Assembly (NCBI GenBank): GCA_009697105.1
Contig: SIAQ01000021.1
Location: forward strand, 1-52,898
Direction: 5' to 3'
Length of the DNA stretch: 52,898 bases
Source: Gemmataceae bacterium
GTDB taxonomy: Bacteria > Planctomycetota > Planctomycetia > Gemmatales > Gemmataceae
Of the stretch, positions 1,464 through 50,072 are shown piece by piece (the first letter of the stretch is position 1; each line of letters begins with the position of its first letter). The translations under genes were made by a program, and so were the position numbers. The notes under the pieces were generated by a model. The model did no database searches, was not told the origin of the DNA, and saw only the letters and a program-made list of their open reading frames with translations.

Positions 1464-1670
1464 ACTAACCACAGAGACACAGAGAAATTGCAATAGGAAT
1501 TCGTGATACTCGTGAATTTTGACGCCGCCGACAAAAATACGAGCCGGAAGCGTAAGTGACGGATTTCTCCAGTCCGTCGCTTACGCTTCCGGCTCGTAAA
1601 GCGACTTTTGTCGGTGGCGTCAATTTTACCTGTCTTGATTTCCTCTGTGTCTCTGTGCCTCTGTGGTTAA
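1464..1670. repeat. Three-level nested palindrome
   Basis: The outer arms are ACAGAG-type (TAACCACAGAGACACAGAG at 1464-1488, complement at 1637-1670). The middle arms are 1514-1540 and 1598-1627 (TTTTGACGCC, CCGACAAAA). The inner arms are 1541-1563 and 1573-1595 (GAGCCGGAAGCGTAAG), matching at 22 of 23 positions. Each pair lies inside the loop of the next. The outer right arm contains the stop codon of the EamA gene. Confidence 0.85.
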
Positions 1671-2581
1671 TTCTCGTTCCGTGGCCAATAGCGGTACGCC
1701 AACGCTCCGAGGATAACAGCGCCGCCGGCGAAAGTCCAGGGGCCAATCGTTTCGCCGGAGATTAGCCAGGCCCAGATCGGCGTGAGGATCGGTTCGAGCA
1801 GCGTGATCGCGCCGGCTTCGGTAGCGCTTACCGACCGCAAGCCGCGGGCCATCAGCCAATAGGGCAAGCCGAGCTGGATCGCGCCGAACAGGAACAGCAC
1901 GATGAACTGCTGCCAAGTCGGCGGATGCAGCATCAGCACGAACGGCAATAGAATCAAACTTCCGAGCAGATGGTTCCAGACCGTCAGCCAACTAGACGAC
2001 ATGTCACGCAGGATGCGCAATCCGAGGATAACGCCGGCGTAGGTAAAACCACTGAACAGGCCAATCCCTACGACGAGCAGCTCGCCATCGGTCCAGCCGC
2101 CGGCGATGATCAGGCCGATGCCGAGCATGCCGAGAAACAAACAGATCGTACTGCGGCGATCGGCTTTTTCGCCCAGCCAATAGATCGAGACGAGGTACAT
2201 CCACATCGGTGCCGAGTTTTGCAGCAAGATCGCGTTGGCCGACGTGCCAAGCGATTGTGCCGAAATAAAAGTGGCATTCATCAAGCCGAAGCAAAGCACC
2301 ATCACGAACATGAGTGGGCGAATTTGCAGGTCGCCTCGCCTAAGCGTGGGCACAAGCACGAGGCCGGCGAAGAACGCGCGGTAGAATGCGATCTGCATCG
2401 GCACGTCTTTGCCCGCGAGCACGAACGGCTCCAGCGTCGGTTCGTTGACGCCGAGAACCGTCGGCGTCGTCAGCGCTTTCGTGAACGCGCCCGACAGGCT
2501 CCACAGCACCGCCGCGATCAGAATGCACCAACGCCCATGCACGACGGATGACGGCGTGGGATTGTTGGGCTCGTTTGTCAT
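1667..2581 (-). CDS. EamA/DMT-family transporter
   Basis: A 304-residue inner-membrane protein of the drug/metabolite transporter superfamily, with about ten hydrophobic helices forming two EamA repeats. The first begins at WCILIAAVLWSLSGAFTKAL and the second near GFTYAGVILGLRI. The conserved EP-x(6)-W element near the end (LLEPILTPIWAWL) supports the assignment. The ATG at 2581 (MTNEPNNP) is preferred, because the in-frame extension to 2749 only translates the repeat at 2619-2725. Such proteins usually export amino acids, nucleosides or other small metabolites; the substrate cannot be read here. The stop codon (TAA, 1669-1667) is part of an intergenic repeat arm. Confidence 0.88.
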   Translation of the reverse strand: MTNEPNNPTPSSVVHGRWCILIAAVLWSLSGAFTKALTTPTVLGVNEPTLEPFVLAGKDVPMQIAFYRAFFAGLVLVPTLRRGDLQIRPLMFVMVLCFGLMNATFISAQSLGTSANAILLQNSAPMWMYLVSIYWLGEKADRRSTICLFLGMLGIGLIIAGGWTDGELLVVGIGLFSGFTYAGVILGLRILRDMSSSWLTVWNHLLGSLILLPFVLMLHPPTWQQFIVLFLFGAIQLGLPYWLMARGLRSVSATEAGAITLLEPILTPIWAWLISGETIGPWTFAGGAVILGALAYRYWPRNEN

Positions 2582-2618
2582 GTGTGACGTTATACGGCGC
2601 GCACACGAAACCGCGCAT

Positions 2619-2725
2619 TTGTTTAGCCGCTCGCCTGTGGCGAGTGCGAGCCTGGTGTTTTGCCTACATCTCAAGGACTGGCAAATTCTAGCGCCCGCGC
2701 TCGCCGAAGGCGAGCGGCTAAACAA
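2619..2725. repeat. Inverted repeat pair, TTTAGCCGCTCGCC family
   Basis: The left arm at 2619-2650 and right arm at 2697-2725 are reverse complements. Each arm also folds on itself (CTCGCC/GGCGAG). It lies between the divergent EamA and AsmA-like genes. Relatives: 29641-29670, 34587-34671, 37211-37278, 40289-40320 and a lone arm at 8832-8860. Confidence 0.8.
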
Positions 2726-2849
2726 TGGCAACTCGTGAACAAAAATCACCGTTGACGTATTCGCACGGATAGCCTATCGTCCTGGCCGCGCGGAAAGTGC
2801 GCTTGAGGCGAACGGGAACTCGTTTTCGCCGGAAATCTGGGAAACGAAC

Positions 2850-5800
2850 ATGGACTGGCGAAAATGGGTAGTCCGCGGGATCGTATACGGCATCGTCGGT
2901 GCTGCCGTCACCGGTGCGCTGATCTATCAACGCCTGACGAATCCCGGCGCCGTTCGCGAGCAAGTCATTGCCGAGATCGCCAAAGCGTTTCCTGGTGCCA
3001 ACATCAGTGTCGATTCCGCGCGTTTGCGCATTCTAGGCGGCATTCAACTCAACGGCGTGCGTCTCACCCGTGCCGACGACCCGGAGAAGAGCGAGTTTCT
3101 CCATATCCCCTCAGCTATCTTTTATCACGACAAAGAGAAAATCCTTGAAGGCCAACTTACGCTCCGCAAGATCGAACTCGTCCGCCCGCGTATGCGCGTT
3201 CGCCGAGAGCGCGACGGCACGTTCAACCTGCAAGGCCTGACGCGACCCCCGACCGACGCGCCGAAGACGATCATGCCGACGATCGTGATTCACAATGGCA
3301 CGCTGATCCTGGAGGACCGCGCCGACCAGGGCAAGGCGACGTCGCTCGAAATCAACGACATCGGCATGACGATCGTCAACGATCCATTGCCGCGCGTCAC
3401 GATTCGCGGCGCCGCCGAGTCGGGCCTGCTGGGCAAGCTGAATTGGCAGGGTACGCTTGATCGAATGACGAACGAAGCGATCCTCGCGTTCAAGGCGAAG
3501 TCGATCGTTTTGTCGCAAGCGCTGCTCGCCCGGCTGCCTCTCCCGATCCCGCCGGAGGTGCAGGTCGGTTTGCAACTCAGCGCGACCGCGCATGTCGAAG
3601 GCCGAGTGTCGTATCATCCCAAGCAAGCCCAACCGCTCTTTTATGATGTCAACTGCGAGATCGAGCATGGCAAGGTGCAGCACCCGAAGCTGCCGTTGCC
3701 TCTCGAAAAAATCGGCGTCAAACTACATTGCTCGAACGGTGCGTTGCAGGTGCATCAGCTCAGCGCCGTCTCGGGTTCGATGGAAATATCGGCTCACGGC
3801 GCCGGCCAGCTTCCCGCACTCGACCAAGAATTCGAGATGCACGTGGACATGAAACACGTTCCGCTCGGCGAAGAGCTAGCGATTCGCCTGCCTGAAAAGA
3901 TTCGCGAACTGCACCGCCGATTTCAACCTGAAGGCCCGACGACGATCCGCATCGCCTGCGCCCGCCACGACGGGCAATGGGTCACCCTGAGTTCGGGCAA
4001 ACCATCGACCGTATCGCTTGAACCCGAGAAAGTCGCGATCGTCTTCAAGAATTTCGCCTATCCACTTCGCGATGCAACTGGGAAGGTTGATTACAACCTG
4101 CTCAACAAACATATCGATGTCCGCCTCACGGCTTTCGCAGGCAAACGGCCCGTATTCCTCAGCGGCCATTGGACCGGCGATGTCGGCAATCAGGCTGATG
4201 TCGAATTCAACTTTCACGGCCATGGCCTCGACATCGACGACACGCTCATTCGTGCTCTCCCGCTCGGTCTGCAGAAATTCGCGGAATCGTTCCACGCGAC
4301 CGGAAAACTCGACGTGCGCGCCCATATCCGCCACGAGGTCGGCAAGGAATATCGCAACGAGTACCACATCCATTTCCACGACGCCGCCATCTGCTGGGCC
4401 GAGTTCCCGTACGCATTGACCAAGGTCAGTGGCAATCTCGACATCTATCCTGAACACTGGGAGTTCCACGAATTCCAGGGCATTCACAAAGAAGGCCATG
4501 TCATGTTGCATGGCAAGTCGATCCCGAAGATCGAAAAGAATGGCGAAAAAACCTTCGGCATCTCCATGGAAATCACCGGACGCGATATCCCCCTCGACAA
4601 TGCTTTGCAGGCCGCCCTCAGCAAGATGCCCGGAATGCAAAAAGCCTGGGAGACTTTCGGCCCCACTGGACGCCTCTATTTCACCGCCAACGTCAATCGG
4701 CCCACGCCCGACATCAAGGACCTCGAAGTCCACGTCGATGCGCACGGCTGCAATATCAAGCCGGCGTTCTTTCCATTCGACATTCAAGACCTGCGTGGCA
4801 AATTCCACTTTCACGACAATCGCCTCGACCTCGCCATGCTCCGCGCGAAACATCACCACGCGATCATCAAGCTCGACAAGGGCTACGTCGATCTCAACCA
4901 ACGCGGCGGCTACTACGCCGATTTGGCCAACTTCGAGGTGCAGGGCCTAAAGCTCGATAACGACTTCGTCAACGCCACGCCCCGAATGATTCAGGACGTG
5001 CTCAAGAACCTGAACTGGCAAGGCCCGATCCGCGCTAAATCGCGCATCGTCGTCTCTCAGCCGGCTGAGATCGGCAAACCGCCCGATGTGTACTGGGACG
5101 GCGTCGTGCAGATGTTTGACGCGAAATTCACGACCGGCCTCGAGTTCGCCAACGTCACGGGCGAACTCGCCTGCACCGGACGCTATAACGGCCGGCAGAT
5201 CGTCGGCCTGACCGGTAACGTCAAGCTCGACAACGCCCTCGTCTTCGATCAGCCGCTCAAGAACATGCACGCCCAATTCCAGATGCGCGAGACCAGCCCT
5301 GACGTGCTCCTCGTCAGTCTGCGGGCGCCGATCTTCAGCGGCGACCTCACCGGGCAACTGCGCGTCGATTTCGGCTCGTCCATGCGCTACGAACTCAACC
5401 TCACCGCCTCGCAAATCAACGTCGCCGAGTTCGGTCGCCTGAACTTCGGCCCAAGATCGCAAATCTCCGGCATCGCCGGCGGACGCCTCTTCCTCACCGG
5501 CCTCGGCACGGGCATGGATTCGCTCGAAGGCAACGGCTCGCTCGACATCGCCCGCGCTCATCTCTACAACCTGCCCGTCCTGCTCGATTTGCTCAAGTAC
5601 CTCGGCAACAAAAACGACGACCGCACCGCTTTCGAGGAGTTCCACGCCGACTTCGCCATCCAGGGGCCGCGCGTCTCGACGCAACGCTTCGACCTGTTCG
5701 GCAGCACGATCAGCCTCGCCGGCAAAGGCGACTATCATCTCGATACGAAGAAAGTCGAAATGGACGTCTACCCGATGTGGGGCCGCGTCGAGCAGTTACT

Positions 5801-6050: not shown

Positions 6051-6096
6051 CGGTGAGCGAAATATTGTGGCGTTCCACCAATGCCGCGGGAAAAAT

Positions 6097-6187
6097 CACC
6101 TCACGCAGAGGCGCAAAGAAAACCAGAAGAATCGGGGCGGGGAATTATTGATTAATCTTCCTCTACGGCTCTGCGCCTTTGCGTGAG
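6097..6187. repeat. Inverted repeat (CTCACGCAGAGGCGCAAAG type)
   Basis: The left arm at 6097-6120 pairs with the right arm at 6158-6187 (CTCTGCGCCTTTGCGTGAG). It lies between the AsmA-like gene and the MNT/HEPN pair and resembles the ACAGAG-type repeats elsewhere in the window. Confidence 0.75.
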
Positions 6188-6243
6188 CCCTTCCCACAAC
6201 AACGGGGAAGAACCTGATTCGTCCTATTCTTGGCCACGTGGAG

Positions 6244-6249
6244 TATAAT
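6244..6249 (+). promoter_or_regulatory. Possible -10 element for the MNT/HEPN pair
   Basis: A perfect TATAAT lies 48 bases before the first ATG of the nucleotidyltransferase gene. I find no good -35 at normal spacing, so this is tentative. Confidence 0.3.
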
Positions 6250-6296
6250 AAAGCCATGCCATCCACCGACACACGCATCACAATAAGAACCGGCTC

Positions 6297-8314: not shown

Positions 8315-8780
8315 CTTTTCCGAGCCGCGACCGTCAGGGAGCGGCCGACAAAATGCGCACGACACCTAGTGCTTTATCAACGCTTAATTTTCGGATAGTC
8401 AATTTCCGAGCCTTAGCGCCAGCGAAGGGCCAATCCGGTGCCCCTGGCTGGCGCTTTTTGAAGTTGCGCATTTTGCTTTTGCACCGAAGGTACTGCAACA
8501 AATCAGCCCAGGGCAACGCCCTGGGGTTGAATCCGCACCAAGAAAATTAGCCCTGAAAGGGCACCACACCGACGCCAGCGCTCGTTTGTTACGCCCTTAT
8601 CAGGGCTAAATCTCGTGGCGGTCTGTTTTCCCAGGGCGTTGCCCTGGGCTGATTTGTTGCAGTACCTTCGGTGCAAAAAATGCGCGACTTCAAAACTGGC
8701 ACTCAGGCTCGGACAACCCGAAGATTATGCGTTGACAGAGCACTAGTCGGCCGCTCCCTAACGGTCGCGGCTCAGAAAAG
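8315..8780. repeat. Four-level nested palindrome filling a 748-base gene-free stretch
   Basis: Gene-free stretch 8285-9032. From outside in, the arm pairs are: 8315-8349 with 8746-8780 (GAGCCGCGACCGT, 33 of 35 positions); 8366-8394 with 8718-8746 (CTAGTGCT...CAACGC); 8461-8525 with 8630-8692 (CAGCCCAGGGCAACGCCCTG, the longest, about 63 bases); and 8549-8563 with 8593-8608 (TAGCCCTGAAAGGGC). A smaller hairpin (8417-8455, GCGCCAGCGA/TGGCTGGCGC) sits in one flank. No reading frame of note is present. Confidence 0.9.
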
Positions 8781-13800: not shown

Positions 13801-13885
13801 GCAAGCCCAAGGGTGAGGTACTCCGAACCCTTGGGATCGCCTCGGTATATTCCAGAGGTTCGGATTACCTCACCTCTGAGCTTGC
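13801..13885. repeat. Two head-to-head copies of a hairpin with conserved TGAGGTA(C/A)TCC loop
   Basis: Copy one (13801-13840, plus) has stem CCCAAGGG/CCCTTGGG. Copy two (13852-13885, minus) has stem TCAGAGG/CCTCTGG. Both have the 14-base loop starting TGAGGTA. They lie between the zinc-ribbon gene and def, upstream of both starts. Other copies: 23598-23637 and 35967-36002. Confidence 0.85.
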
Positions 13886-14596: not shown

Positions 14597-14717
14597 GCTA
14601 ACCACAGAGGACACAGAGAAATTCAACAAGAATATAGAATGTTGCGCCCGGTTGGGTTGCAAAATTGAACATGGTTATTTTACCTATTTCGTATTCTCTG
14701 TGTCCTCTGTGGTTAGT
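14597..14717. repeat. ACAGAG-type inverted repeat between def and recB
   Basis: The left arm (14597-14623, CTAACCACAGAGGACACAG) and right arm (14692-14717) are reverse complements. The right arm holds the TAA stop codon of recB, and the left arm begins five bases after the def stop. Confidence 0.85.
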
Positions 14718-21578: not shown

Positions 21579-21610
21579 GAATGAATTTCCCACGAACAGA
21601 ATCGGGAAAC

Positions 21611-21663
21611 CGTCTGCGGCTTATCGCTCGGAGAACGCCTTGCGAGCGCTAAGCCGCAAGCGG
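21611..21663. repeat. Inverted repeat, GCGGCTTA/GAGCGCTAAGCCGC family
   Basis: The left arm (21611-21630) and right arm (21642-21663) are imperfect complements, related to 1124-1172. It lies between recC and the sulfatase stop. Confidence 0.6.
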
Positions 21664-23552: not shown

Positions 23553-23597
23553 GGACCGATCCTCGGCGGGATATTTTCGTATCAGGGAATTATACGC

Positions 23598-23637
23598 GCA
23601 AGCCCAGAGGTGAGGTACTCCCAACCTCTGGGATCGC
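23598..23637 (+). repeat. Hairpin with conserved TGAGGTACTCC loop
   Basis: Stem CCCAGAGG/CCTCTGGG around the loop TGAGGTACTCCCAA, preceded by GCAAG and followed by GATCGC, as at 13801-13840. Confidence 0.85.
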
Positions 23638-23643
23638 GAAATC

Positions 23644-23715
23644 CCAAGCCCGCAGGCGACGAAGGAGCCTGCGGGGTTTGACCCACGCAGGCTCCTTCGT
23701 CGCCTGCGGGCTTGG
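23644..23715. repeat. Long inverted repeat, AAGCCCGCAGGCGACGAAGG family
   Basis: The arms at 23644-23674 and 23686-23715 are nearly perfect reverse complements of about 28 bases. Each arm also folds on itself. It follows the hairpin at 23598 in the divergent spacer between sulfatase and radical SAM genes. Confidence 0.9.
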
Positions 23716-25122: not shown

Positions 25123-25182
25123 TATATAGCCCGCCATTTATGGCGGGTCTTGGCGAACCCGCCATAAATGGCGGGCTATATA
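25123..25182. repeat. Perfect 26-base inverted repeat (TATAGCCCGCC family)
   Basis: The arms at 25123-25148 and 25157-25182 are exact reverse complements. Each arm is itself a hairpin (CCCGCCAT/ATGGCGGG). It starts one base after the radical SAM stop and ends eight bases before the gcvH-like start. Confidence 0.92.
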
Positions 25183-25682: not shown

Positions 25683-25752
25683 TTCCGAGCCGCGGCTGAC
25701 AGGATATCGTGCGGATTATGTCGGCCGCTCCCTTACGGTCGCGGCTCGGAAA
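25683..25752. repeat. GAGCCGCGACCG-family inverted repeat with eroded left arm
   Basis: The right arm (25720-25752) matches the outer arm at 8746-8780. The left arm (25683-25695) keeps only its first 13 or so bases. It lies in the spacer before the ferredoxin gene. Confidence 0.75.
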
Positions 25753-26942: not shown

Positions 26943-26983
26943 GTTACTGTAGCCATCACGCGGAGCGTGATGGCTACGGTAAC
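26943..26983. repeat. Near-perfect hairpin between convergent genes (GTAGCCATCACGC)
   Basis: Stem GTAGCCATCACGC (26949-26961) pairs with GCGTGATGGCTAC (26965-26977) around a GGA loop, extended by GTTAC/GTAAC. It starts two bases after the ferredoxin stop and contains the stop codon of the C45 gene. There is no T tract, so it is not a standard terminator. Confidence 0.9.
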
Positions 26984-31613: not shown

Positions 31614-32050
31614 GCTTAGCCACAGAGATCACAGAGCACACAGAGAGAAAGGGATTGTATCAGGCCCCCCTACTCTTTCAGCATTTCCAACTCGGTGTTC
31701 TCTGTGTTACCTACCTCCAAAATCTTTGCGAGCCGCGCAGACTTCATACTGCGCAAATTCAGAATGCGAATCACGAAAGAACGAAAGTACGAAAACACGA
31801 AATAGAAACCCAACCCAAGCGATTTGCCCAACAGTACACCGCACTACCGGAAAAATTCAGGGACCATACGGAAGACAGGAAAGCAAGAATTAAATCAGCC
31901 CTTTTTTTCCTACGTTCCTGCTTTCCTTATCGAGAACTGCTTTGGCTTGTGACTCGTCGTGAATGATTATGCCTTCCTTTCGTTCTTTCGTATTTTCGTG
32001 ATTCTGTATTTGTTGCGGCTTGGCCGCGCTGGGTCCTCTGTGGCTAATCT
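31614..32050. repeat. Nested inverted repeats filling a 496-base gene-free stretch
   Basis: Gene-free stretch 31565-32060. The outer arms are TTAGCCACAGAG (from 31614) and CTCTGTGGCTAA (32033-32050). The inner arms (31769-31803 and 31976-32006) share CACGAAAGAACGAAAGTACG. At the centre, AGGAAAGC (near 31877) pairs with GCTTTCCT (near 31921). A further ACAGAG half-arm lies at 31693-31711. No coding frame of note. Confidence 0.85.
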
Positions 32051-33436: not shown

Positions 33437-33523
33437 TTCCGCTTTTCAGAGCCACGCACGAAGTAAGTGATTTGTATTTACACGTAGACCACTTACCTCG
33501 TGCGTGTCTCTGAAAAGCGGAAA
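33437..33523. repeat. Inverted repeat, GAGCCACGCACGAAG family
   Basis: The arms at 33437-33475 and 33488-33523 share CCGCTTTTCAGAG, CACGCACGA and GTAAGTG and are reverse complements. It ends 20 bases before the oxidoreductase start. A relative lies at 48318-48398. Confidence 0.88.
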
Positions 33524-33542: not shown

Positions 33543-34571
33543 ATGAAAGCACGACAAGCCATCATTACCAAAGCCTTTGAAGTCGGTGTCCGTGAGGTCG
33601 AACTTCCCGATCCGGCGGAGAATCAGATTCTCATCGCCGCCGAGGTCAGCGCAATCAGCCCCGGCACAGAGTTAGCCGTCTACACCGGCACGCACCAGTG
33701 GCTGCAAGACCCGAATCTGCCGGACTGGAAGTTTCCGTTCAAGTCCGGCTACAGCGCCGCGGGCACGGTCGTCGCGGTGGGTAAAAGCGTCACCGGTTGG
33801 AAAGCGGGCGATCGCGTCAGTTTTCCGGGCAATCACGCTTCCGCCGAGCTTCTCACGATCGGCCACGAACGAGGCCGACTGTGGAAGCTACCGGACGGTC
33901 TCGATTTCGAGAAAGCCGCCCTGGCGTGCATTCTACGTTACGGCATGGGTGCGTCGATCCGCGCGGGCCTGACGCTGGGCCGCTCGTTTGCCGTGCTCGG
34001 CCTGGGCATGATCGGCCAAGCGGTGTTGCGTTGCGCGATGGCGGCGGGTGCGAATCCGGTCATCGGCATCGACAGCGTCAAGATGCGTCGTGAAGCCGCG
34101 CTGGCCGCCGGTGCCGATCTCGTACTTGATCCGAATGACGCGAATTACAAGCAAGAGATGAACGACTTCCTCGGCATGAAAGGCGCCGAGATCGTCGCCG
34201 ACGCCACCGGCGTGCCCGACGCCATCCCAACGGCGATGTCGTTGGCGTGCGACGCGGGTCAAGTCGTCGTCGTCGGCAGCCCTCGCGGCAAAGCAAAGGA
34301 TGTAAATTTTTACGATGACCTACATCGCCGCTATATCGAAGTCTCCGGCGCGCATGGCAACCAACTCTTTGAAGCTGCCCACACTCGCTTGGCAGGCGCG
34401 TGGGACATCAACAAAGCACAGAAATGGCTGCTGGCGGGACTCGCGAAAGGCCGCATCAGTCTCAACGATTTGATCACGCATCGTATCAAACCCGAGGAAC
34501 TCGGCATGGCGTATGAAGGGTTGCTCAAGAACAAGGAGCAATTCCTGTGCGCGGTGATGCGCTGGAAGTGA
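33543..34571 (+). CDS. MDR-family (alcohol-dehydrogenase-like) oxidoreductase lacking zinc ligands
   Basis: 342 residues from the ATG at 33543; the open frame extends to 33504 into a repeat. The catalytic-domain turn reads SPGTELAVYTG, where zinc enzymes have a metal-binding Cys, and no structural zinc Cys cluster is visible. The nucleotide-binding part has VLGLGMIGQAVLRCAMAAGA with acidic ID following (GIDSVKMRR), suggesting NAD(H) preference. This resembles the BchC-like or polyol-type subgroup of the medium-chain family. Substrate unknown. The sugar-isomerase-like gene further on is co-oriented but 213 bases away. Confidence 0.83.
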   Translation: MKARQAIITKAFEVGVREVELPDPAENQILIAAEVSAISPGTELAVYTGTHQWLQDPNLPDWKFPFKSGYSAAGTVVAVGKSVTGWKAGDRVSFPGNHASAELLTIGHERGRLWKLPDGLDFEKAALACILRYGMGASIRAGLTLGRSFAVLGLGMIGQAVLRCAMAAGANPVIGIDSVKMRREAALAAGADLVLDPNDANYKQEMNDFLGMKGAEIVADATGVPDAIPTAMSLACDAGQVVVVGSPRGKAKDVNFYDDLHRRYIEVSGAHGNQLFEAAHTRLAGAWDINKAQKWLLAGLAKGRISLNDLITHRIKPEELGMAYEGLLKNKEQFLCAVMRWK

Positions 34572-34586
34572 GGACGCCGTTGGTAT

Positions 34587-34671
34587 TCGTTTAGCCGCTC
34601 GCCTTTGGCGAGCTTGAACGGCTGCCGCACACAACGCGGGTCACGCTCGCCAAAGGCGAGCGGCTAAACGA
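34587..34671. repeat. Inverted repeat pair, TTTAGCCGCTCGCC family
   Basis: The arms at 34587-34613 and 34644-34671 are reverse complements (CGTTTAGCCGCTCGCCTTTG and its complement). The pair begins 15 bases after the oxidoreductase stop. Confidence 0.9.
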
Positions 34672-34784
34672 AAAATCCTCTTCGCGCTTGAAGTCGAGCC
34701 ACGCTGCCTGTAGGCTTTCCTTTACAACCGGCATTACACACAACCCGCCTGGGCTTTATTCTTTCGCTTCGGAAGGGCGTCATC

Positions 34785-35954: not shown

Positions 35955-35966
35955 TCTGTTTGAATC

Positions 35967-36002
35967 GCAAGCCCAAGGGGTGAGGTACTCCGAACCCCTT
36001 GG
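35967..36002 (+). repeat. Hairpin with conserved TGAGGTACTCC loop, possible terminator
   Basis: Stem CCAAGGGG/CCCCTTGG around TGAGGTACTCCGAA, then CTTTTC. It lies 12 bases after the isomerase stop and just before the stop of the convergent gene at 36007, so it could also act as a weak terminator. Confidence 0.85.
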
Positions 36003-36006
36003 CTTT

Positions 36007-37194
36007 TCATTTCTTTGTCCCGAACCATTCACGCATCGCCGCGACATCGCCGCGCAGTTGCAGCGTGACCCAGTGTTGTGGTTGCTCGGGCGGGGTGACT
36101 TCGATCTTTCGCGAGATACCCTCGGGCAGCTTTGCTTTCTCCAGCATTGTCACCAATTTGCCGGCGGCCTTCGTGTCGCCCACCTGCAGGTCCCCAAGGA
36201 TCGTCAAGCCATCAATGGGCGTGACACCGAGCGCCAATCGCTTTGTTTCCGCAAGCGCAGCGACATGTTGCTCGCCAACAACGGCCAAGAACGGCCCAAG
36301 GATGCCAACGCCAGCCGTGTCTCCTGCCAACCATGCGAAGTGGTGTTTCGCTAGTCGCTGCTGAATCATTTCGCGCAAGCCCGTTGGGATCACCTCCTCG
36401 ATGGGGCGGGCCTTGACGTTCATCTGCTTCAAATATTCCTCGCTGGTGATGTCGGGGCCAATCGGAAATCGCACGAGGTAAACGAGCGTCTGGTCATCTG
36501 CCTGCCACACGATCGCTTCGGCGCCGGCCTGAAGCGTGAACTCATACGTTGCCCGATCTCGGTGGAGATACGACTTCTTGGGCCGAGCGTCGCCGACTTT
36601 TTCAAGCGATATCTTTCGCCTCGCCTTTACAACCAAGGAAAATTCGGAAAGCGTCCGCCCGCCGACGACAACATGATCGATATCCTCGGCCTTCATGCCC
36701 GTCGTACGATGGATTTGCCTGAGTGCCCAGTCCAACCCCACCGGTCGCGGCTCAGCTAGCAGCGGCCTGCCAACCTTCGCGTCCTCGACCATTTCGCCGA
36801 TATGCAGGCCGGCCACGAACGCGCAGTTCGTCGGTAAGTAGCCGAGGCCGGGCAATTCGAGCGGCTGGCGGAATGCTATTGGTTCGAGCTTCGTGTGAAG
36901 CCAAGGATGCCGCGATTGCCGCAACTGAGTCGTCCACAGCGCGAAGCTCAGACCGATTATCGCCATCGTGAACATAATGCCGAGCACGATGAACAGCGTC
37001 TTGCGGATGCCGGGTGGTCGCGCTGGTAGGGGCTGCGGTGATTTCGCGTTGCTCAGGCTCGCACCGACTCGCCAGCGCGACGCCGCCACCGGCTCGTTGC
37101 AGCGCGGGCACGGCAACATCATATCCGGCGGCTGCGGCGTGAGCACTTGCAAAACAGCGTTGCAATACGGACAGGTGTTATTCGCGTCGTTCAT
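36007..37194 (-). CDS. Zinc-ribbon membrane protein, unknown function
   Basis: 395 residues. An N-terminal double zinc knuckle (C8-x2-C11, C29-x2-C32) is followed by a Pro-rich linker and one transmembrane helix (TLFIVLGIMFTMAIIGLSFAL). A large periplasmic region comes next (RTTGMKAEDIDHVVVGGRTLS; ISRKIEVTPPEQPQHWVTLQ). The outer region may be a duplicated alpha/beta unit. I recognise no enzyme motif. Zinc-ribbon plus helix plus extracytoplasmic domain is a common planctomycete design. Confidence 0.72.
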   Translation of the reverse strand: MNDANNTCPYCNAVLQVLTPQPPDMMLPCPRCNEPVAASRWRVGASLSNAKSPQPLPARPPGIRKTLFIVLGIMFTMAIIGLSFALWTTQLRQSRHPWLHTKLEPIAFRQPLELPGLGYLPTNCAFVAGLHIGEMVEDAKVGRPLLAEPRPVGLDWALRQIHRTTGMKAEDIDHVVVGGRTLSEFSLVVKARRKISLEKVGDARPKKSYLHRDRATYEFTLQAGAEAIVWQADDQTLVYLVRFPIGPDITSEEYLKQMNVKARPIEEVIPTGLREMIQQRLAKHHFAWLAGDTAGVGILGPFLAVVGEQHVAALAETKRLALGVTPIDGLTILGDLQVGDTKAAGKLVTMLEKAKLPEGISRKIEVTPPEQPQHWVTLQLRGDVAAMREWFGTKK

Positions 37195-37210: not shown

Positions 37211-37278
37211 GTTTAGCCGCGACTCGCCAGCGGAGCGCGATCGACATCCCGCGCTCCGCTGGCGCGTCGCGGCTAAAC
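37211..37278. repeat. Inverted repeat, TTTAGCCGCGACTCGCC variant
   Basis: The arms at 37211-37239 and 37250-37278 (CGCTCCGCTGG / CCAGCGGAGCG) match over about 29 bases. It begins 16 bases before the start of the zinc-ribbon protein and ends one base before the PSD1 gene stop. Confidence 0.9.
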
Positions 37279-40288: not shown

Positions 40289-40320
40289 GTTTAGCCGCTC
40301 GCCTTTGGCGAGCGGCTAAA
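40289..40320. repeat. Perfect TTTAGCCGCTCGCC hairpin
   Basis: The two arms are directly joined (TTTAGCCGCTCGCC and its complement around TT). It sits between the PSD1 start and the alpha/beta hydrolase stop, which it provides (TAG, 40318-40316). Confidence 0.95.
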
Positions 40321-41155
40321 CGCCGCAAAACTTCGTAATCGCTTCCACGAACTCGGCTTCCTTCTCGAACATCGGCAGATGGCCGCAGTTGGGGATCAAC
40401 TTCAATTCGGAGCCGGGTATCAGCTTATGATACGCTTCGCCGTACGCGGGAGGCACGAGCCGATCGTTATCGCCCCACAGCAGCAGCGTTGGGCAGGCGA
40501 TGCGCCGCAATCGGCCCGCGAGCTTTGGATCGTAAGGCCGCTGCCAAACCATGCGGGCGAGCACGGTCATCGCTTGGTAGGCGTTGAGCATCGTCGATTC
40601 GTCAACGTTGTCCTTGATGACGACGCTCGCCATTGCACTGTGCGGATCGTGAAACAGCATCTCGCGCAGCTTCTCGCGATTCTGTGCCACGCGGAACAAA
40701 TCGCCGAGCGACGAACCCTCAACCCACAACCCCGGCGCGTCGGCTATCCACAGTCGTTTGACACGTTCCGGCCAACGCACGGCAATCTCCGCCGCGATCC
40801 ACCCGCCGAGACTGACGCCGCCGAGACAGACCTGCTCCAGACCAAGCGCGTCGAGCATGTCGATGTAGTGAAACGCCATGTCCTCGATGTCCGCGATCAG
40901 ATCGAACCCGCCCGATCGCCCGAACCCCGGATGGATCGGCGAATAGACGCGGAACTTCTTCGCAAACGCCTGGTGGAACGGCAACCACATCAGCGATTCA
41001 CCGAGAGCGCTATGCAAATAAACAAACGGCTCCCCCTCGCCGCCATGCAGCAAGATCGACGCCTTGCCGGCGACATCAATAGTCTCCGGCTGCCCGCCCA
41101 ATTTGGAGAGCAATACGCGTGCGCCATAGTGGAGCTTTTTGAAGAGATTGAGCAT
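40316..41155 (-). CDS. Alpha/beta-fold hydrolase
   Basis: 279 residues with an intact catalytic set: nucleophile elbow G-V-S-L-G-G (Ser115), acid in LLWGDNDRLVPP, and His in NCGHLPMFEK. The oxyanion strand is PFVYLHSALGES. The lid is short, as in lipase/esterase and C-C-bond hydrolase members. There is no signal peptide, so it is likely cytoplasmic. Substrate unknown. The last codons (KFCGV, stop) run into an intergenic hairpin. Confidence 0.88.
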   Translation of the reverse strand: MLNLFKKLHYGARVLLSKLGGQPETIDVAGKASILLHGGEGEPFVYLHSALGESLMWLPFHQAFAKKFRVYSPIHPGFGRSGGFDLIADIEDMAFHYIDMLDALGLEQVCLGGVSLGGWIAAEIAVRWPERVKRLWIADAPGLWVEGSSLGDLFRVAQNREKLREMLFHDPHSAMASVVIKDNVDESTMLNAYQAMTVLARMVWQRPYDPKLAGRLRRIACPTLLLWGDNDRLVPPAYGEAYHKLIPGSELKLIPNCGHLPMFEKEAEFVEAITKFCGV

Positions 41156-41270: not shown

Positions 41271-41354
41271 GTAGGGTGCGTCAAGCGCCAGCGCCGACGC
41301 ACCGGGCCCTCGCGGGTTCACGGTGCGTCGGCACTGGCGCTTGGCGAATCCTAC
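41271..41354. repeat. Inverted repeat of about 33 bases (GTAGGGTGCGTCAAGCGCCA)
   Basis: The arms 41271-41303 and 41322-41354 are near reverse complements with a few mismatches. It ends 16 bases before the YjbR-like start. Confidence 0.88.
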
Positions 41355-41733: not shown

Positions 41734-41920
41734 TCCGACCGGTGACGCGTAGCAAGGAACATGCGGAGCCGGTTTGATGGAACACGATCAACGATTCAAG
41801 ACGTTGCTGCGTCGATTCTTCGCCGATTTTCTGCGCTTGTTTTTCGCACGGTGAGCGACACGGTTTGATCTTACGCGAATCGAATGGCTTGATAAGGAAA
41901 TGATAGCCGGCGAATGCAAA

Positions 41921-41978
41921 CGAGCCGGAAGCGCTTGGGACGGAGTGAAAATATCCGTCGCTAACGCTTCCGGCTCGT
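41921..41978. repeat. Inverted repeat, GAGCCGGAAGCG family
   Basis: The arms at 41921-41943 and 41954-41978 match the inner pair at 1541-1595. It lies 24 bases past the stop-codon end of the secA gene. Confidence 0.9.
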
Positions 41979-42001
41979 TCATTTTTCGTTGGCAACCAAC
42001 G

Positions 42002-45000: not shown

Positions 45001-46135
45001 GCTTTTTGAGGCCATGCAGGACGGCGCCGTCCTGCATGACGGTTTCCTCATCGGGTTTTTCATCCGACAGCGGATGATGCGGGATGTTGACGCCATGACC
45101 CAAAGCACGCAGCTTTTCTTGGGCCTTCTTCTCAAGCCGCGTCAGTTCGATGGCGATCTGGTTCGCCTTCTCGTAGTTCTTCGGCGTGCCAAACGAGGGC
45201 CCGGAGATAATGAGTGGCGTGCGGGCCTCATCAATCAGGATGTTGTCAACCTCATCAATAATCGCGAAGTTGAGGGCGCGTTGGCATTGTTGCGCATCAG
45301 GCGAATAGTTGTTATCGCCCCAGCGGGCGGGCTTCATGTTATCGCGGAGGTAATCGAAGCCGTACTCGCTGTTGGTTCCGTAGGTGATGTCGCAGTCGTA
45401 CGAGCTGCGTCGGGCGTCGCCGCCCATTTCGCTTTGGATATAGCCGCAGGAGATGCCGAGACCGTGATAGATCGGCAACATCCATTCGCAGTCACGGCGA
45501 GCAAGGTAATCGTTGACGGTGATGACATGTACGCCGGCTCCGGTGAGCGCATTCAGATACGCCGGCAGCGTGGCGACAAGTGTCTTGCCTTCACCGGTGA
45601 CCATCTCCGCGATCTTGCCCTGGTGCAGCATCGCTCCGCCGACGATTTGCGTGTCGAAGTGCCGCATGTTCTTCGTGCGAAACGCGATCTCTCGGCAAGC
45701 GGCGAACGCGAACGGCATGATGTCGTCGAGCGTCGGCGTCGCGCCGAGCATCTGGTCCATCGTCGCGATCAGCGTGTTGTACGCTTCCGTCGCTTCGCCT
45801 TCGGCTTCCGGTGCGGCATTCGCCAATTTCTTGCCCAACGGCACATGCTCGACGCCGATACGCGTGCGGAAATCCGCTGTCAGCTTCTCAAACTCGTCCT
45901 CGCGCAGTCCTTGCATCAACGGTTCGAGCGAATTCACGCGGTCCAGCAGCGAGCCGGGCGTGACCGTATGGGTCTCGCTGCCGCGGAGCCGAACGTAGCC
46001 CACGGAACGCACGATCTTATCGTTGTTCGATCCGAACAATCGCCCGAGAAAGCCGACGAACGATTCGGAGAACGCGCTGAGTCCATCGGTAAATCGTTCC
46101 CAGAGACTTACGTCTATTTTCGCTTCAGTGCTCAT
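42002..46135 (-). CDS. secA: Preprotein translocase ATPase SecA (long form)
   Basis: 1377 residues from the ATG at 46135 (MSTEAKIDV), with GGTGG upstream; the frame is open to 46189. It is the motor of Sec export. Walker A is GEGKT (181-185); IIDEVDNILIDEARTPLIISG is the DEAD-type region; RGRAGRQGDPG is motif VI. A C-terminal SEC-C zinc motif reads DKCLCGSGKKYKNCC. It exceeds the usual 900 or so residues. One insert (about 350-420, rich in E/K) falls in the preprotein cross-linking region. A second (IHLKDGTTQVGTI ... QTTSANLIDHI) precedes VGTTNVNQSE in the second nucleotide-binding domain. The C-terminal scaffold is also enlarged. Confidence 0.96.
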   Translation of the reverse strand: MSTEAKIDVSLWERFTDGLSAFSESFVGFLGRLFGSNNDKIVRSVGYVRLRGSETHTVTPGSLLDRVNSLEPLMQGLREDEFEKLTADFRTRIGVEHVPLGKKLANAAPEAEGEATEAYNTLIATMDQMLGATPTLDDIMPFAFAACREIAFRTKNMRHFDTQIVGGAMLHQGKIAEMVTGEGKTLVATLPAYLNALTGAGVHVITVNDYLARRDCEWMLPIYHGLGISCGYIQSEMGGDARRSSYDCDITYGTNSEYGFDYLRDNMKPARWGDNNYSPDAQQCQRALNFAIIDEVDNILIDEARTPLIISGPSFGTPKNYEKANQIAIELTRLEKKAQEKLRALGHGVNIPHHPLSDEKPDEETVMQDGAVLHGLKKHEAKLEEEAEEAAHVDDEKVESYVASANVDKKEKRLGFFFEVKEKERSCHLTDEGIRKAEEMAGVESFYTAGNMEWPHMIDNALKAHHLYQKDRQYVVMRHPETGEMSVIIVDEFTGRLMVGRQWSDGLHQAVEAKHVRDGVKIKEETQTLATVTLQNFFRLYKKLAGMTGTAMTEANEFWKIYKLDVVAIPTNMALRRINYPDLVYLTEKEKWDAVVGDIERINKFDTIHLKDGTTQVGTIKTEDEAQLVIQLKETRETQTTSANLIDHIEYSGRPMLVGTTNVNQSERLSKMLSRRGVKHELLNAKPEYAAREAEIVAQAGRIGSVTIATNMAGRGTDIILGGNAETLAWARLKDRYPTRLDVPEDVWKATVDGIRVTERMSEEGREVAAMGGLHIIGTERHESRRIDNQLRGRAGRQGDPGSSRFFVSLQDELMRIFAGEWVANVLSKLGMAAGEAIESPMVSRRIEAAQKKVEEQNFDIRKNLLEYDEVMDYQRKRVYGYRQELLNDANPKLRIASMLTQQVDLALDRYLDPTYGAASFAELVVQQLSIDVSAADFKNCSFEEADLVAREKALNNIQTQIQEALDENLDDETEQSEWNWQAMADRVNKLWGLKTTDRQLKKIGRDNISQYLFAEAEKVVHVADLTKGQIYLRPDWAFLSLANWFKLKFHVDIDVSQYDYDVPRARIRQALLAEVKKLYREKEIEFPVSIGFARFMDDKGHGGAIGQKYNREGLFQWYTMKFGKNAGMTEEEFRTESRAKLYTKLVALSNKTYPTEDHDAIDAKLAEAFVGARVSEAGDAHEVAEWAKTQLRLEVEEERLVGVSYDQARDILWTAFDLKYRPEMRRMERSLLLNQLDTEWKNHLLVMDHLRSGIGLVGYAQVDPKTEFKRVGMKEFDTLWEGLSDKVSEIVFRMEEDEAFAETVWTIGQLVHESAPRLQAPEGSIQAQQQAAISNSQQTDKKQEPIRNRTDKVGRNDKCLCGSGKKYKNCCMSTPG

Positions 46136-46338
46136 TTTCAAACCACCTGCATCCATTGTGAAAGCCTGAAGGGCGAGCACGACAACCACAACGGCATCGC
46201 AGGCCCATCAGGCTCCAGGGTTTCGCTGTCTTCGCGCTTCCGAAAACTCAGTCTAAGTTTCCTAGGCGTTTAGGTCAATATGATTACCAACGACGACGAT
46301 CCGTTGAGTGTACGACACCACTTGCAGAAAACCACTTC

Positions 46339-46423
46339 TAACCACGGATCATGCAGATTACGCGGATCGGAAAGAAGTCGCGGGCATTTTTGCCTATCCG
46401 TGTCATTGGTGTTATCCGTGGCT
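46339..46423. repeat. Inverted repeat (TAACCACGGAT type)
   Basis: The arms at 46339-46370 and 46395-46423 are imperfect reverse complements (ACCACGGAT / ATCCGTGG; ACGCGGAT / ATCCGTGT). It lies in the 656-base spacer 46136-46791; nothing else is seen in 46136-46338. Confidence 0.75.
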
Positions 46424-46524
46424 GGATTCTTTCCAAGTCCTGTCTTGCACCCTGATACTATATGGAGGAGCCGCACGCAAATCCTCGCAAATTCTGACAG
46501 CTCTCGCCCATCTCCACTCCACTT

Positions 46525-46700
46525 ATCACCACAGAGGCACAGAGAGAATGCAAAGACTTGGAAGTTGTGGCATTATCCACCTATCATTGGCTACAATCAT
46601 TCGTTCATAGAAAGAAGACAAGCATTTTCCTGATGTTTTTCTCTGTGCCTCTGTGTCTCTGTGGTTTATTCTTGGGTCTCTGTGGTTTATTCTTGGTGGG
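46525..46700. repeat. ACAGAG-type inverted repeat plus a tandem duplication
   Basis: The left arm (46525-46550, ACCACAGAGGCACAGAGAG) pairs with the right arm (46639-46668). The unit TCTCTGTGGTTTATTCTTGG then occurs twice in a row, at about 46656-46676 and 46677-46697. Confidence 0.8.
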
Positions 46701-46791
46701 GATCGGCGAGTAGTGTCCAAATTCTCGGCTTTTCGCGCCGTTACCAACTATGATGGATTCATGGCACTTTCCCGCATACGGAGAACGAACG

Positions 46792-47937
46792 ATGCGCCGA
46801 CGATTTCTGCTTCTGTCATTGCTCACGGTTGCGATGGCGAACCCATTTGCTCAGGCCGACACGATCCCGCTTGGCCGACATCCCGATGTCGCTCTCCTGC
46901 CACGCGATTGGGCACTGTTGTACGACGATACGACGCTCTTCCCTCGCTCAACCGCCTGGCGGGAAATCCCGTGGCTGATCAACCTCAACGACGCCGTCGC
47001 TGCCGGCAAAAAGGAGAACCGCCCAATCCAGATCTGGGTCCCCGGCAACGACCCGCTCGAACGTTGCTGAGGCTACGCCATTGGGCTCCGTGAGGGTCCC
47101 CTGAGTCATCCAGACGTCGTCAATCTGATTGCGCGTCACACTGTACCCGTCGCGCAAAACCTCTACATAATTCGCTCACAAAAGGATATGGCGGGCGAGT
47201 TCTTTCGCAATGTGCAGAAATAGAAACCGGCCCAATACCAAGGCCTGTACCTCGTATCACCTGATGGCAAGGTGCTCGCCAGCCATCAGCAGTACAAGAA
47301 TGGAAAAACGTGGGTGAACGAATTAATCGCCGACCTCGAACCTGGTCTGCGGGCGTTCGGCGACATCAAACCACGCGACGTGAGCCGAGCGGATCCCCTG
47401 CCCTTCCGTGGCGTGGGCAAACGTGAAGATGGCAGCATCACCCTGGCGATCTATCTGCGCAACGCCAGAAAGAAAATACCGTTACGAGAACTGCCGAATC
47501 CGACCATCGATAGCCTGACGCTGTCCACGAGCGAACTCGGCGAGTTCGCTCCGCCGCGCATCGAACATGGTGTTGCGTGGAAGCTGTCCGAGGAGTTGTC
47601 GCGCAAATTCAGCCGCCTGCTCGGACCCAGCGACGAGGCCTCGATGCCGCGACGGAAGGAAGTGACCGCGTTCAACCTGACTGCGAAACTCGATCGTGTC
47701 GAGAACGGCGTGGCCATTATCACCTATCAAGGCTCGCTCGCCGGCGGACACTTGAACGCCGCCAAAAAGCAGACGCAGGGCAAGGTGAACATCCTCGGAG
47801 TGGGCCGATATCACGTCAAAACCAAACAAATGCTGTCGCTCGTCTGGATCGCCGACGGCGTGTACAACGGGCCACCGCCCTACGATCACGCCGCCCCGTA
47901 CACCGCGGTGGTAGAATGGGTGCGCGAGCTAAAGTAG
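46792..47937 (+). pseudogene. Secreted thioredoxin-like protein with in-frame TGA and TAG
   Basis: One continuous frame of 381 codons is interrupted by TGA at 47068-47070 and TAG at 47221-47223. It starts at the ATG at 46792 with GGAG upstream and a signal peptide (MRRRFLLLSLLTVAMANPFAQ). The first third is thioredoxin-like (IPWLINLNDAVAAGKKENRP, PLSHPDVVNLIARHTVPVAQN). The TGA directly follows a Cys (ERC-stop-GYAIGL) at the point where related proteins place a redox or small residue. The C-terminal part (ADPLPFRGVGKR, ITYQGSLAGGHLNAA) reads smoothly. Most likely a decaying gene; a selenocysteine reading of the TGA is possible but does not explain the TAG. Confidence 0.7.
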
Positions 47938-47949
47938 CTCGTGCGTTGG

Positions 47950-48008
47950 GTTTACGTTTAGCGATCGCGCGATGTTTCGACGGCATCGCGCGAACGCTGA
48001 ACGTAAAC
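47950..48008. repeat. Inverted repeat, GTTTACGTTTAGCGATCGCGCG family
   Basis: The arms at 47950-47974 and 47984-48008 are near reverse complements. Single arms of the same family occur at 50050-50072 and, more diverged, at 52720-52740. Confidence 0.8.
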
Positions 48009-48063
48009 GGATTCATCTCGCTACTCGGCTATCTCACCGTTTCTACGCTTTGCGTGATTGGGA

Positions 48064-48345
48064 CAAAATCACGCCGATGCCGCGGTCAATCTGAAAATCG
48101 CCGCGACCAATGCTGGGCCGTTGGTGCCGATCACCGTCTCGACGCTGCTGCCCGAGGTTCGCACCTTTTTCGTGGATGTCGATCTCAATCACGATGGCCG
48201 CTTTGAGGGTGCGGGCGAACTGGCCTATTCCACCCGCAAATTCGACGACACTGGCACTGCGGATATCCGCTTGCGCGGTTTGATCGATGGCCGACGACGC
48301 CCCATGTGACGTTTGTTGTCAGAGCCACGCCCAAAGTAAGTGGTT
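48064..48345 (+). pseudogene. Relic of a surface/Calx-like protein
   Basis: A fragment reads LKIAATNAGPLVPITVSTL and VDVDLNHDGRFEGAGELAYS, as in large planctomycete extracellular proteins with beta domains. It then shifts frame near 48297 to give PHVTFVVRATP. It has no start of its own, and its 3' end merges with the repeat at 48318. Confidence 0.5.
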
Positions 48346-48398
48346 TGAATTTACGATCGCGGTACACTGCAACCACTTACTTCGTGCGTGGCTCTGGC
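48318..48398. repeat. Inverted repeat, GAGCCACGC family
   Basis: The arms at 48318-48346 and 48371-48398 match the pair at 33437-33523 (AGAGCCACGC, AAGTAAGTG). Confidence 0.88.
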
Positions 48399-48582
48399 AA
48401 GACTATTCGTCGATCCTACCCGATGCGAAATGGCTTTGCAAAGTCAGTTTCGCGCAGTTCTCAATTTGAATTCAAAAATCGTGCACTCTGTCGCCGCCCT
48501 CATCCTGGGCTTCGTGGCCAACACCGCAAAAAAATACAGGGAAAGTGCCACAGCACTTGTCCCGCGGCTGTTGGCCAAGTGG

Positions 48583-48912
48583 TCAAAAGATGTCGAGCCA
48601 AAAGTGGTTGCCACGGTGGTAGCGTTGCGGCGACCAAAGCTCGTAGCGCCAGGCGGGATCGCGGAACGGGGGGTAGGCCATGTAGGCGGGCGACGGCTGG
48701 TACGGGGCGCCGGGCGGTTCGGGCCATCGCGGGCCCATTGCAGGCCAATAGTTATGGGGGAAGTAGTAGTAGGGGTAGTAATAAAGCCGACCAAGTTGAT
48801 GGTTTTGGTTGTAGGGCTGGTAATACTGGGCCTTTGCCTCGCCCACATCGACCAGCCAACCCACCAAAAACAACACGACAGCTGCACACCCGCAAATCCT
48901 TTGGCGTTTCAT
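48583..48912 (-). CDS. Small secreted Tyr/Pro-rich protein
   Basis: 109 residues from the ATG at 48912, with a perfect AAGGAGG five bases upstream. The signal peptide (MKRQRICGCAAVVLFLVGWL, cleavage near AKA) leads to a mature part dominated by Y, P, N and W (LYYYPYYYFPHNYW, PPGAPYQPSP). Such compact aromatic proteins may be cell-envelope components. Function unknown. Confidence 0.7.
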   Translation of the reverse strand: MKRQRICGCAAVVLFLVGWLVDVGEAKAQYYQPYNQNHQLGRLYYYPYYYFPHNYWPAMGPRWPEPPGAPYQPSPAYMAYPPFRDPAWRYELWSPQRYHRGNHFWLDIF

Positions 48913-49321
48913 CGGTGCCTCCTTGATTCCTGAATCGCATTGTGCGATCCTGTCATCCTAACCCTTCGCTTATTTGTACCACGCAAATCACGCTTTCACC
49001 TGGCGACACTCTCGCTTTGATGGGATTTGCTTCGCAGGCACGGCAAGCTCTATTACGAACGGCGACTCGGAATAATGGACAAGATACACCGACTGTAACG
49101 ATTGTGCCTTTTTTGTTTCTTATACTGGCCGGTTCTATTTCAGTTTGTAAAATGCTCATAAGATACTATTTCTGGGACAAATGTTTATTTTGGGAAAATT
49201 AGGAGATTTGCCGTTGCGTAGAAACTGCAACGAGGAGGAATATAAGGGTTTCACTTTTGGAAGTCCGGGACTGGCCTGGACTGTTTTTTTTTGAGGTGTT
49301 TTGTTTTTAGGAGGATACTGG
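48913..49321. other. Spacer of about 409 bases, AT-rich in its second half
   Basis: From about 49100 the base composition drops well below the surroundings, with runs such as TTTTTTGTTTC near 49110 and eight or more T near 49285. I see no gene and no repeat arm; a promoter for the gene at 49322 is likely here but not clear. Confidence 0.5.
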
Positions 49322-49858
49322 ATGCACACCTCGGTCGGTTTTCTCGCCTTCGCCAGCTTTTTGTCAAGCGTTTCTTGGGACGCCGTCCTACCCGAAATCC
49401 CATGGCAAACGAGTTATCAAGAAGCACGGAGTCACGGGCAGAAGGTCAAAAAACCACTCGCCGTCATCGTTGGGGCTGGCAAAAGCGGCTACCAACAGCT
49501 CATCCAGGAAGGATCCCTTTCCAGCGACATCAGGAAGATACTTGCGAACGAATTTATCCCCGTATACCTGGACACCGAGAAGGCCGAAAATATACGCCTG
49601 ATCGCTGATCTTGGTATCACCCTCGGCAAAGGCATCGTGCTTAGCGACCGCGAAGGCAAGACCCAAGCGTTCTTCCACGAAGGCACGATTTCGGAAAAAG
49701 ATATTACCCGCCAGCTGGCCCGCTTCGCCGATCCCTCCCTTGTGGTGAATACCACGACGACACTCTCCAGTAGCCGCGTGAGCTACTATCCGTCGTCGGG
49801 CACCGAAATCCGATCCTCAACCCCTTACTCGCGAGTGACTTCTACCCGAAACTGCTGA
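49322..49858 (+). CDS. Secreted thioredoxin-fold-like protein without a CxxC
   Basis: 178 residues from the ATG at 49322, with AGGAGG seven bases upstream. A hydrophobic N-terminus (MHTSVGFLAFASFLSSVSW) suggests export. The segment PWQTSYQEARSHGQKVKKPL, then strand AVIVGAGKSG and FIPVYLDTEKAEN follow a thioredoxin-like layout, but the active site lacks the cysteine pair. The tail is Ser/Thr-rich. It resembles the front of the decayed gene at 46792. It is followed by a clear terminator. Confidence 0.7.
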   Translation: MHTSVGFLAFASFLSSVSWDAVLPEIPWQTSYQEARSHGQKVKKPLAVIVGAGKSGYQQLIQEGSLSSDIRKILANEFIPVYLDTEKAENIRLIADLGITLGKGIVLSDREGKTQAFFHEGTISEKDITRQLARFADPSLVVNTTTTLSSSRVSYYPSSGTEIRSSTPYSRVTSTRNC

Positions 49859-49899
49859 CCGTAGGCACGCAATGAGAGCCGGTTCGGCTCTTACCTGAT

Positions 49900-49946
49900 A
49901 GCCTGAGTTTGCGCAATATAGCGAAAACTCAGGCTTTTTCTTTTTT
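49900..49946 (+). terminator. Rho-independent terminator
   Basis: An 11-base stem AGCCTGAGTTT (49900-49910) pairs with AAACTCAGGCT (49925-49935) around a 14-base loop and is followed by a T-rich tract (49935-49946). A small hairpin (AGAGCC/GGCTCT, 49875-49891) lies just before it. Confidence 0.88.
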
Positions 49947-50049
49947 AACGGATTGGCGTTCTGCCTTTCTGTGTCCCATACTTCCAATGCTGGACAGTAC
50001 CCGATTGTTAACGTTCAGAATTCGCGGAATGCTATGCTTGTACCGGCAC

Positions 50050-50072
50050 CGCGCGAGCGCTAAACGTAAACC
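50050..50072 (-). repeat. Lone arm of the GTTTACGTTTAGCG family
   Basis: GCGCGAGCGCTAAACGTAAA matches the right arm at 47984-48008; no left arm is found. Confidence 0.55.

Follow-up and report, generated by a model that had tools for sequence, protein, structure and literature searches.

The closest described systems are the REP/REPIN–RAYT elements of the GTAG superfamily (PMC3733652, PMC6006769) and the classes of TnpA-Y1 transposases set out in PMC6006769. As far as the accessible parts of these two sources go, canonical feet read GT[AG]G, the feet of class 3 (found mainly in Planctomycetes) read CnGA, and subclass 1.2 has the REP entry 'no' (PMC6006769); GTAG REPs are reported from Planctomycetes, and R. 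baltica is named among the species in which genes for tyrosine transposases, with repeats beside them, form 'a plethora' (PMC3733652). REPs are thus already known in the phylum. According to published in-vitro work, the guide bases A3G4 choose a CT cut site.

Here we describe the intergenic palindromes of a 52,898-nt stretch of DNA from a Gemmataceae bacterium (GenBank assembly GCA_009697105.1, contig SIAQ01000021.1, positions 1 to 52,898), which as a whole is called the window below. They resemble the GTAG superfamily, as it is presented in the accessible parts of PMC3733652 and PMC6006769, in being hairpins with a 5' tetranucleotide, in forming inverted dimers, in being intergenic and multi-copy, in flanking their own tnpA genes and, as in R. 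baltica, in belonging to several families per genome. They differ from it, on the same basis, in that the guide is NNAG in most families, with the first two bases free, and in that about 18 families are found in one genome. Very probably these palindromes represent about 18 families of REP elements, mostly in the form of REPINs, with every family copied, now or formerly, by its own Y1/HUH single-strand transposase (TnpA/RAYT) and AG kept through the choice of CT.

Our first sample of 392 kb (69.5 kb intergenic and 322.7 kb coding) was made up of the window and 20 further stretches of its genome, and a second set of 20 unused stretches (327 kb) was held out; pooled, they make 719 kb, or 13% of a genome of 5.44 Mb. 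Genes were called with our own rough hexamer finder, so the intergenic counts are approximate. With a score of at least 11, 113 palindromes are intergenic versus 16 coding in the 392 kb, about 33-fold more per base in spacers. They were grouped into 29 clusters by average linkage (single-linkage clustering by 10-mers was rejected, as it chained 100 of the 113 palindromes into one group).

A sequence-only reading of the window had listed 11 palindrome arms and proposed that most of them share an AGCC or TAACC foot. All 11 arms were located in the window, nine of them on both strands; TTAGCCCTGAAAGG and CAAGCCCAGAGG have exact matches on one strand only. The sharing of AGCC goes beyond chance: in the 392 kb it occurs in 20 of the 29 clusters, against 9.65 ± 2.1 when the arms are shuffled with dinucleotides kept (the largest of 300 shuffles gave 16), and in 12 of the 17 recurrent clusters, against 6.3 ± 1.8 (largest 11). 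That this share is a compositional by-product of GC-rich palindromes is a reading that can point to the first sample, where GCGA equals AGCC (20/29, joint first) and AGCG and CGGA are level with it in the recurrent clusters, and to the hold-out coding hairpins, four of 11 of which contain AGCC. We consider it extremely improbable, given the shortfall of the shuffled arms, the hold-out, where AGCC alone is the commonest 4-mer (26 of 39 clusters, the next being in 22; 16 of the 17 recurrent clusters, those of two or more members, the next in 13), and the position of AG, which adjoins the stem in 28 of 52 TnpA-flanking hairpins (17 of 29 outside the genus; see below). What is conserved, however, is AG and not AGCC: when the search core leaves out the foot, AG still stands directly before the stem in most units of 16 of the 18 families, while the preceding two bases vary. 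AGCC is therefore made up of the two bases that close the guide and those that open the stem, usually CC.

The intergenic palindromes form about 18 families, most with AG at the base (F-numbers are our own family labels; in the notation N1N2AG|CC the bar marks the base of the hairpin stem). Counting in the 719 kb gave 478 units, 460 of which are intergenic, for the 20 families defined (F1 overlaps with F1b); for the 5.44 Mb of the genome, this extrapolates to roughly 3,600 units. As in a REP or REPIN, each unit is a short hairpin whose 5' foot is a guide tetranucleotide, and most units form inverted pairs with the feet outside (e.g. 38 of 47 units of F1, 20 of 22 of F3 and 34 of 42 of F10; none of the three of F14). 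AG precedes the stem with a foot that is mainly CGAG in F1 (44/47), F1b (23/25), F2 (25/27), F9 (10/10), F16 (23/25) and F3 (AG|GC; 16/22, among the weakest). The foot is mainly CAAG or TAAG in F4 (44/53) and F17 (10/11), AGAG in F8 (27/27), TTAG in F10 (42/45) and F11 (16/17), ATAG in F12 (18/34, among the weakest; its palindromic core was matched on both strands) and TAAG in F7 (70/81; the side of the foot is ambiguous here, as F7 can also be read reversed, as TTAG|CG with feet outside). A guide of GT[AG]G is not the general rule: it is found in F6 (7/7 units), F13 (10/10), F14 (2/3), F15 (8/8) and F5 (8/12), the other families having mainly CGAG, AGAG, TTAG, CAAG, ATAG or TAAG. The first three of these have GTAG, with AG before the stem in the same numbers of units; F6 reads AG|GG, and F15 (8/8) and F5 (8/12 units) end in GG, so that the wording AGCC does not hold for these families, nor for F3. 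CGTC, which marks one end in the CGTC superfamily of REPs, is absent from the top 5' feet when the 5' ends are tabulated.

In the window, F1 REPINs are found at 1538–1598 (foot CGAG|CCGGAAGCG) and 41919–41979, and F10 REPINs at 2622–2722 (foot TTTAG|CCGCTCGCC) and 34586–34672 (its cognate TnpAs, L065 and L066, are in relatives). F4-type copies are a REPIN at 13801–13885 (foot CAAG|CCCAAGGG; cognate TnpA L026), a single unit at 23597–23638 (CAAG|CCCAGAGG) and an element at 35962–36013 (AAG|CCCAAGGGG). Further REPINs belong to F17 (23644–23715, CAAG|CCCGCAGGC; cognate TnpA L005), F12 (25123–25182, ATAG|CCCGCCAT), F8 (33437–33522, AGAG|CCACGCACG, and 48316–48400), F11 (37211–37278; cognate TnpA L004) and F6 (41271–41354, GTAG|GGTGCGTC). 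There are also an F7 element (21610–21663, CTAAG|CCGCAAGCGG, with the foot inside on this parse), an F7b element (47950–48008, GTTTACGTTTAG|CG), an F7b single unit on the plus strand (50055–50071), an F16 element (25683–25751, CGAG|CCGCG) and two double-foot hairpins, of F14 (26943–26983, GTAG|CCATCACGC) and F10 (40289–40321). Between 8322 and 8773 palindromes are nested like Russian dolls, at least four different hairpin families one inside another: F16 arms (8322/8763) enclose F2, which encloses AG|CCCAGGGC hairpins (8504/8641) around AG|CCCTGAAAGGG (8547).

Most of the window could be aligned with a relative that is about 95% identical (G013), mostly at 92–97% identity, with some blocks lower. 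Among 16 window elements inspected in G013, 11 are of the same family, three are of a different family, one shows a central deletion and one has no counterpart (for the elements at 8415, 25683 and 41919 we used hairpin lists or block alignment rather than a base-by-base comparison); the unchanged family at 11 of 16 sites counts against our explanation. The G013 spacer has an F8 REPIN in place of F12 at 25123 and F6 in place of F14 at 26943, and at 37211 it has F10 in place of F11, with matching flanks; the F7 element at 21610 has no counterpart. The F10 double-foot hairpin at 40289 equals the whole F10 REPIN of G013 minus its centre, an origin that had been suggested for such hairpins in the accessible part of PMC6006769. 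Upstream of the dehydrogenase gene at 33543, the spacer is occupied differently from genome to genome: by F8 here (F8 was seen in this spacer in none of five relatives), by an F10-like unit in G041, by a CGAG|CCCGCAGC REPIN in G062, by a GTTTAG|CCG remnant in G063, by none in G061 and by a GxxExxY element in G054.

Hairpins are commoner in convergent (34/59) and tandem (101/240) spacers than in divergent ones (30/86), which speaks for intrinsic terminators or other RNA signals, with AGCC reflecting the stability of an RNA stem. We nevertheless hold this to be highly improbable: T-runs lie beside 18 of 186 palindromes, about the background (52/582), AG lies outside the stem of a single unit, the families flank TnpA genes, and the window has no Rfam match at gathering scores. 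No tRNA was found in the window either.

The TnpA genes also bear on how many activities are involved. The Pfam Y1_Tnp profile, searched with E up to 10, finds six places in the genome (L001–L005 and L026) and none in the window, in keeping with the sequence-only reading, which had seen no transposase there. L001–L005 pass the profile's cut-off and L026 is below it; L003 has internal stops. The genome thus holds six TnpA (Y1/HUH, IS200-like) genes, one of them broken and all outside the window. The proteins show what defines RAYT/TnpA-Y1, a Y1 fold with the HUH motif and the catalytic Tyr, in the divergent L026 according to a predicted structure: its AlphaFold2 model (mean pLDDT 77, pTM 0.71) has the ISDra2 transposase (2xm3) as first PDB match and RAYT 4er8 at rank 5, with modest scores (E 6e-4 for 2xm3 and about 6e-4 to 8e-4 among the best matches, TM 0.39 by query length). 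L005 and L026 have H-S-H, the hydrophobic middle residue being replaced; L026 is 51% and L004 22% identical to L005. The RAYT equivalog NF047646 (cut-off 80 bits), scanned against L001, L002, L004 and L005, is not reached by any of them (30.9 bits for L004, 22.2 for L001 and 18.5 for L005; no match for L002), and the IS200/IS605 family NF033573 (cut-off 55 bits) gives 69.0 bits for L002, 54.9 for L001 and 25.8 for L004, with no match for L005. Relatives of L004 in our scan of genome contigs are only two, in metagenome-assembled genomes of a Phycisphaerae bacterium and a Planctomyces sp.

Two F17 REPINs enclose L005, two F11 REPINs enclose L004 and F4 REPINs enclose L026; L001 and L003 are each enclosed by inverted AG|CCCAGGG hairpins. 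The suspected link to RAYT/IS200-type transposases, which pair a short foot with a hairpin, therefore holds, several families being cognate to such transposases. The single mobilising activity that had been proposed with it does not. One master transposase that recognises an AGCC foot and moves all families would suit the one foot shared by diverse stems and the many families without an own TnpA found in this genome, and orphan families may be cross-mobilised by a foreign TnpA; as a general account it is nonetheless very unlikely, because L005, L026 and L004 of the same genome each have a family of their own on either side (F17, F4 and F11, respectively), which argues for many activities rather than one, and relatives add further family-specific pairs. 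In this genome (91.9% complete, 187 contigs) the only hairpins with a TnpA beside them are those of F4, F11, F17 and the CCCAGGG type, which counts against our explanation. Here a profile built from 13 TnpAs that carry Y---Q or Y----Q (class-3-like ones included) matches only L004, L005 and L026, so F1, F2, F3 and F16 look orphaned in this genome, where a missed TnpA gene is possible given its completeness and the number of contigs. In six other genomes of the genus, TnpAs are flanked by the window families F10 (L065/L066), F7 (L128/L133) and F1b (L148), further pairs being L097/L121/L123 with F5 and L140 with F4; L111 is probably the F16 TnpA. For F6, F8 and F12–F15 no cognate TnpA was identified in this genome or its relatives.

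The AG foot is also found beside TnpA genes outside this genus. We took in 126 TnpA loci, a selection of the loci found (120 non-redundant at 80%); a repeat common to both flanks is present in 91 of the 120, with a clean hairpin in 52 of these, and the 68 loci without a clean hairpin include 29 without a repeat common to both flanks. Hairpins were taken with a strict picker, as automatic picking by minimum energy did not cope with imperfect REPs. In 28 of the 52 hairpins, versus 5.8 expected, the stem base has AG as its immediate 5' neighbour on one side or both (P 5e-14; the next dinucleotide is found in 10); counted by rows, this makes 17 of 29 outside the genus and 11 of 23 inside. AG is not shown by 24 of the 52, in some cases (e.g. 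L065/L066) because the stem had been placed one base off by the picker; exceptions to the AG foot are CACG (L031, L047) and GAA (L038, L051). The TnpAs beside AG feet span subclass 1.2 (YI--Q-EHH), class 2 (Y---NP), class-3-like proteins (RSNHVHVVV, Y----Q) and the H-S-H group (six of the 120, L003, L039, L074, L076, L095 and L149, were dropped from the motif comparison for length or stops). The shared foot is common to several TnpA classes.

Two of these classes can be compared with the descriptions given in the accessible part of PMC6006769. L148 and L132 (NHVH, Y----Q) resemble the motifs of class 3, and feet such as CAGAG and CCGAG contain its CnGA one base further out, the feet here being parsed as NNAG|CC; L109 and L125, however, have THVH, the published Y motif YV[VI][AENY]EQ is not exactly matched, and our comparison covered motifs other than the W motif. 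L001, L090, L091 and L103 carry DH[VI]H and YI--Q-EHH, as in subclass 1.2, but are flanked by inverted AG|CCCAGGG hairpins, in contrast to the REP entry 'no' of that subclass. L026, L005 and L140 form a TnpA group with H-S-H for HUH (THSHW) and Y---Q...AWIW, which is absent from the class table in PMC6006769 as accessible to us. Neither the relaxation to NNAG over many families nor hairpins of subclass 1.2 were found in the literature searched.

In the mechanism that we propose, the unit is a hairpin preceded by a guide tetranucleotide, of the type NNAG in most families; the first two guide bases and the stem vary by family, and AG would be kept because A3G4 selects CT, through cross-complementarity, as the dinucleotide to be cleaved. 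Where two units form an inverted dimer with the feet outside, the same strand starts with NNAG (5') and finishes with CTNN (3'); each REPIN would thus carry both a guide and a cut site, be cleaved at CT and be copied in trans; many TnpAs would since have been lost from this genome. Conservation of A3G4 only, over about 16 families, is what this model would predict if these TnpAs cut at CT.

The TAACC arms, which had been counted with the shared-foot set, have to be removed from it: like the TTAGCCACAGAG arms, they are not REP hairpins and belong to another system. TAACCACAGAG, TTAGCCACAGAG and ACCACAGAGGCACAGAG consist of short units in tandem that are arranged as inverted arrays, and no REP hairpin is part of them. 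In the window such iteron-type inverted repeats are found at 1466–1669 (TAACCACAGAG...CTCTGTGGTTA; GxxExxY-type ends, gene-less inside, enclosing the F1 REPIN at 1538), at 14599–14715 (TAACCACAGAG), at 31616–32047 (nested, TTAGCCACAGAG ends around CACGAAAG ends around GGAAAGCA ends) and at 46528–46666 (ACCACAGAGGCACAGAG; G013 has other sequence at this site). In relatives such arrays bound GxxExxY genes (PF13366/PDDEXK_3, TIGR04256), of which L213 and L221 match TIGR04256. A flanking inverted repeat with a score of at least 14 is found at 38 of 49 GxxExxY loci versus four of 130 control genes of this genome, and at least two CRCR-type units at 26 of 49 versus one of 130 (L229 and L233, second halves of broken genes, are omitted from these counts). 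The unit varies from gene to gene (CACAGAG, CGCAAAG, CACGGAA, CACGGGG, ACAGGATGA), and a search of this genome for PF13366 gave a fragment only. As a lead, the TAACC and TTAGCCACAGAG palindromes of the window can be taken for gene-less copies of a GxxExxY-linked mobile element.

The GxxExxY gene in G054 upstream of the dehydrogenase ortholog (L188) lies between GAAACGCAGAG arrays, and was not seen there in this genome, G041, G063, G062 or G061. Long inverted arrays of CACGAAAG-type units were also observed at L009 (11993–12082), L015 (4657–4761) and L021 (5719–5807); they and the CACAGAG arrays are probably elements of one kind. The flanking iteron arrays set these loci apart from the GxxExxY protein as described (TIGR04256/PF13366), and no published link between GxxExxY/PDDEXK_3/TIGR04256 and such arrays was found in the literature searched.

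Taken jointly, the two systems suggest a reading that we put forward tentatively, as possible rather than probable: that the guide keeps only A3G4 across TnpA classes (1.2, 2, 3-like and H-S-H), fixing one cut dinucleotide while hairpins and the first guide bases diverge and one family takes the place of another at a given site; and that the other palindromes of the window are copies, lacking the gene, of a mobile element not yet described. This element would consist of a GxxExxY PDDEXK nuclease gene flanked by inverted arrays of two or three iterons of about 8–11 nt, which differ in sequence from gene to gene, and its copies would nest in one another. The genus offers a natural experiment on the co-evolution of single-strand transposases and hairpins, with many cognate pairs and one conserved dinucleotide, and a relative at about 95% is near enough to reveal different families at one site. 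The rule that links A3G4 to CT becomes testable in nature, REP-like hairpins are tied to subclass 1.2 TnpAs, which are listed without them in the accessible part of PMC6006769, and a natural double-foot hairpin is seen to equal an entire REPIN without the central part. The iteron elements linked to GxxExxY may represent an additional type of mobile DNA.
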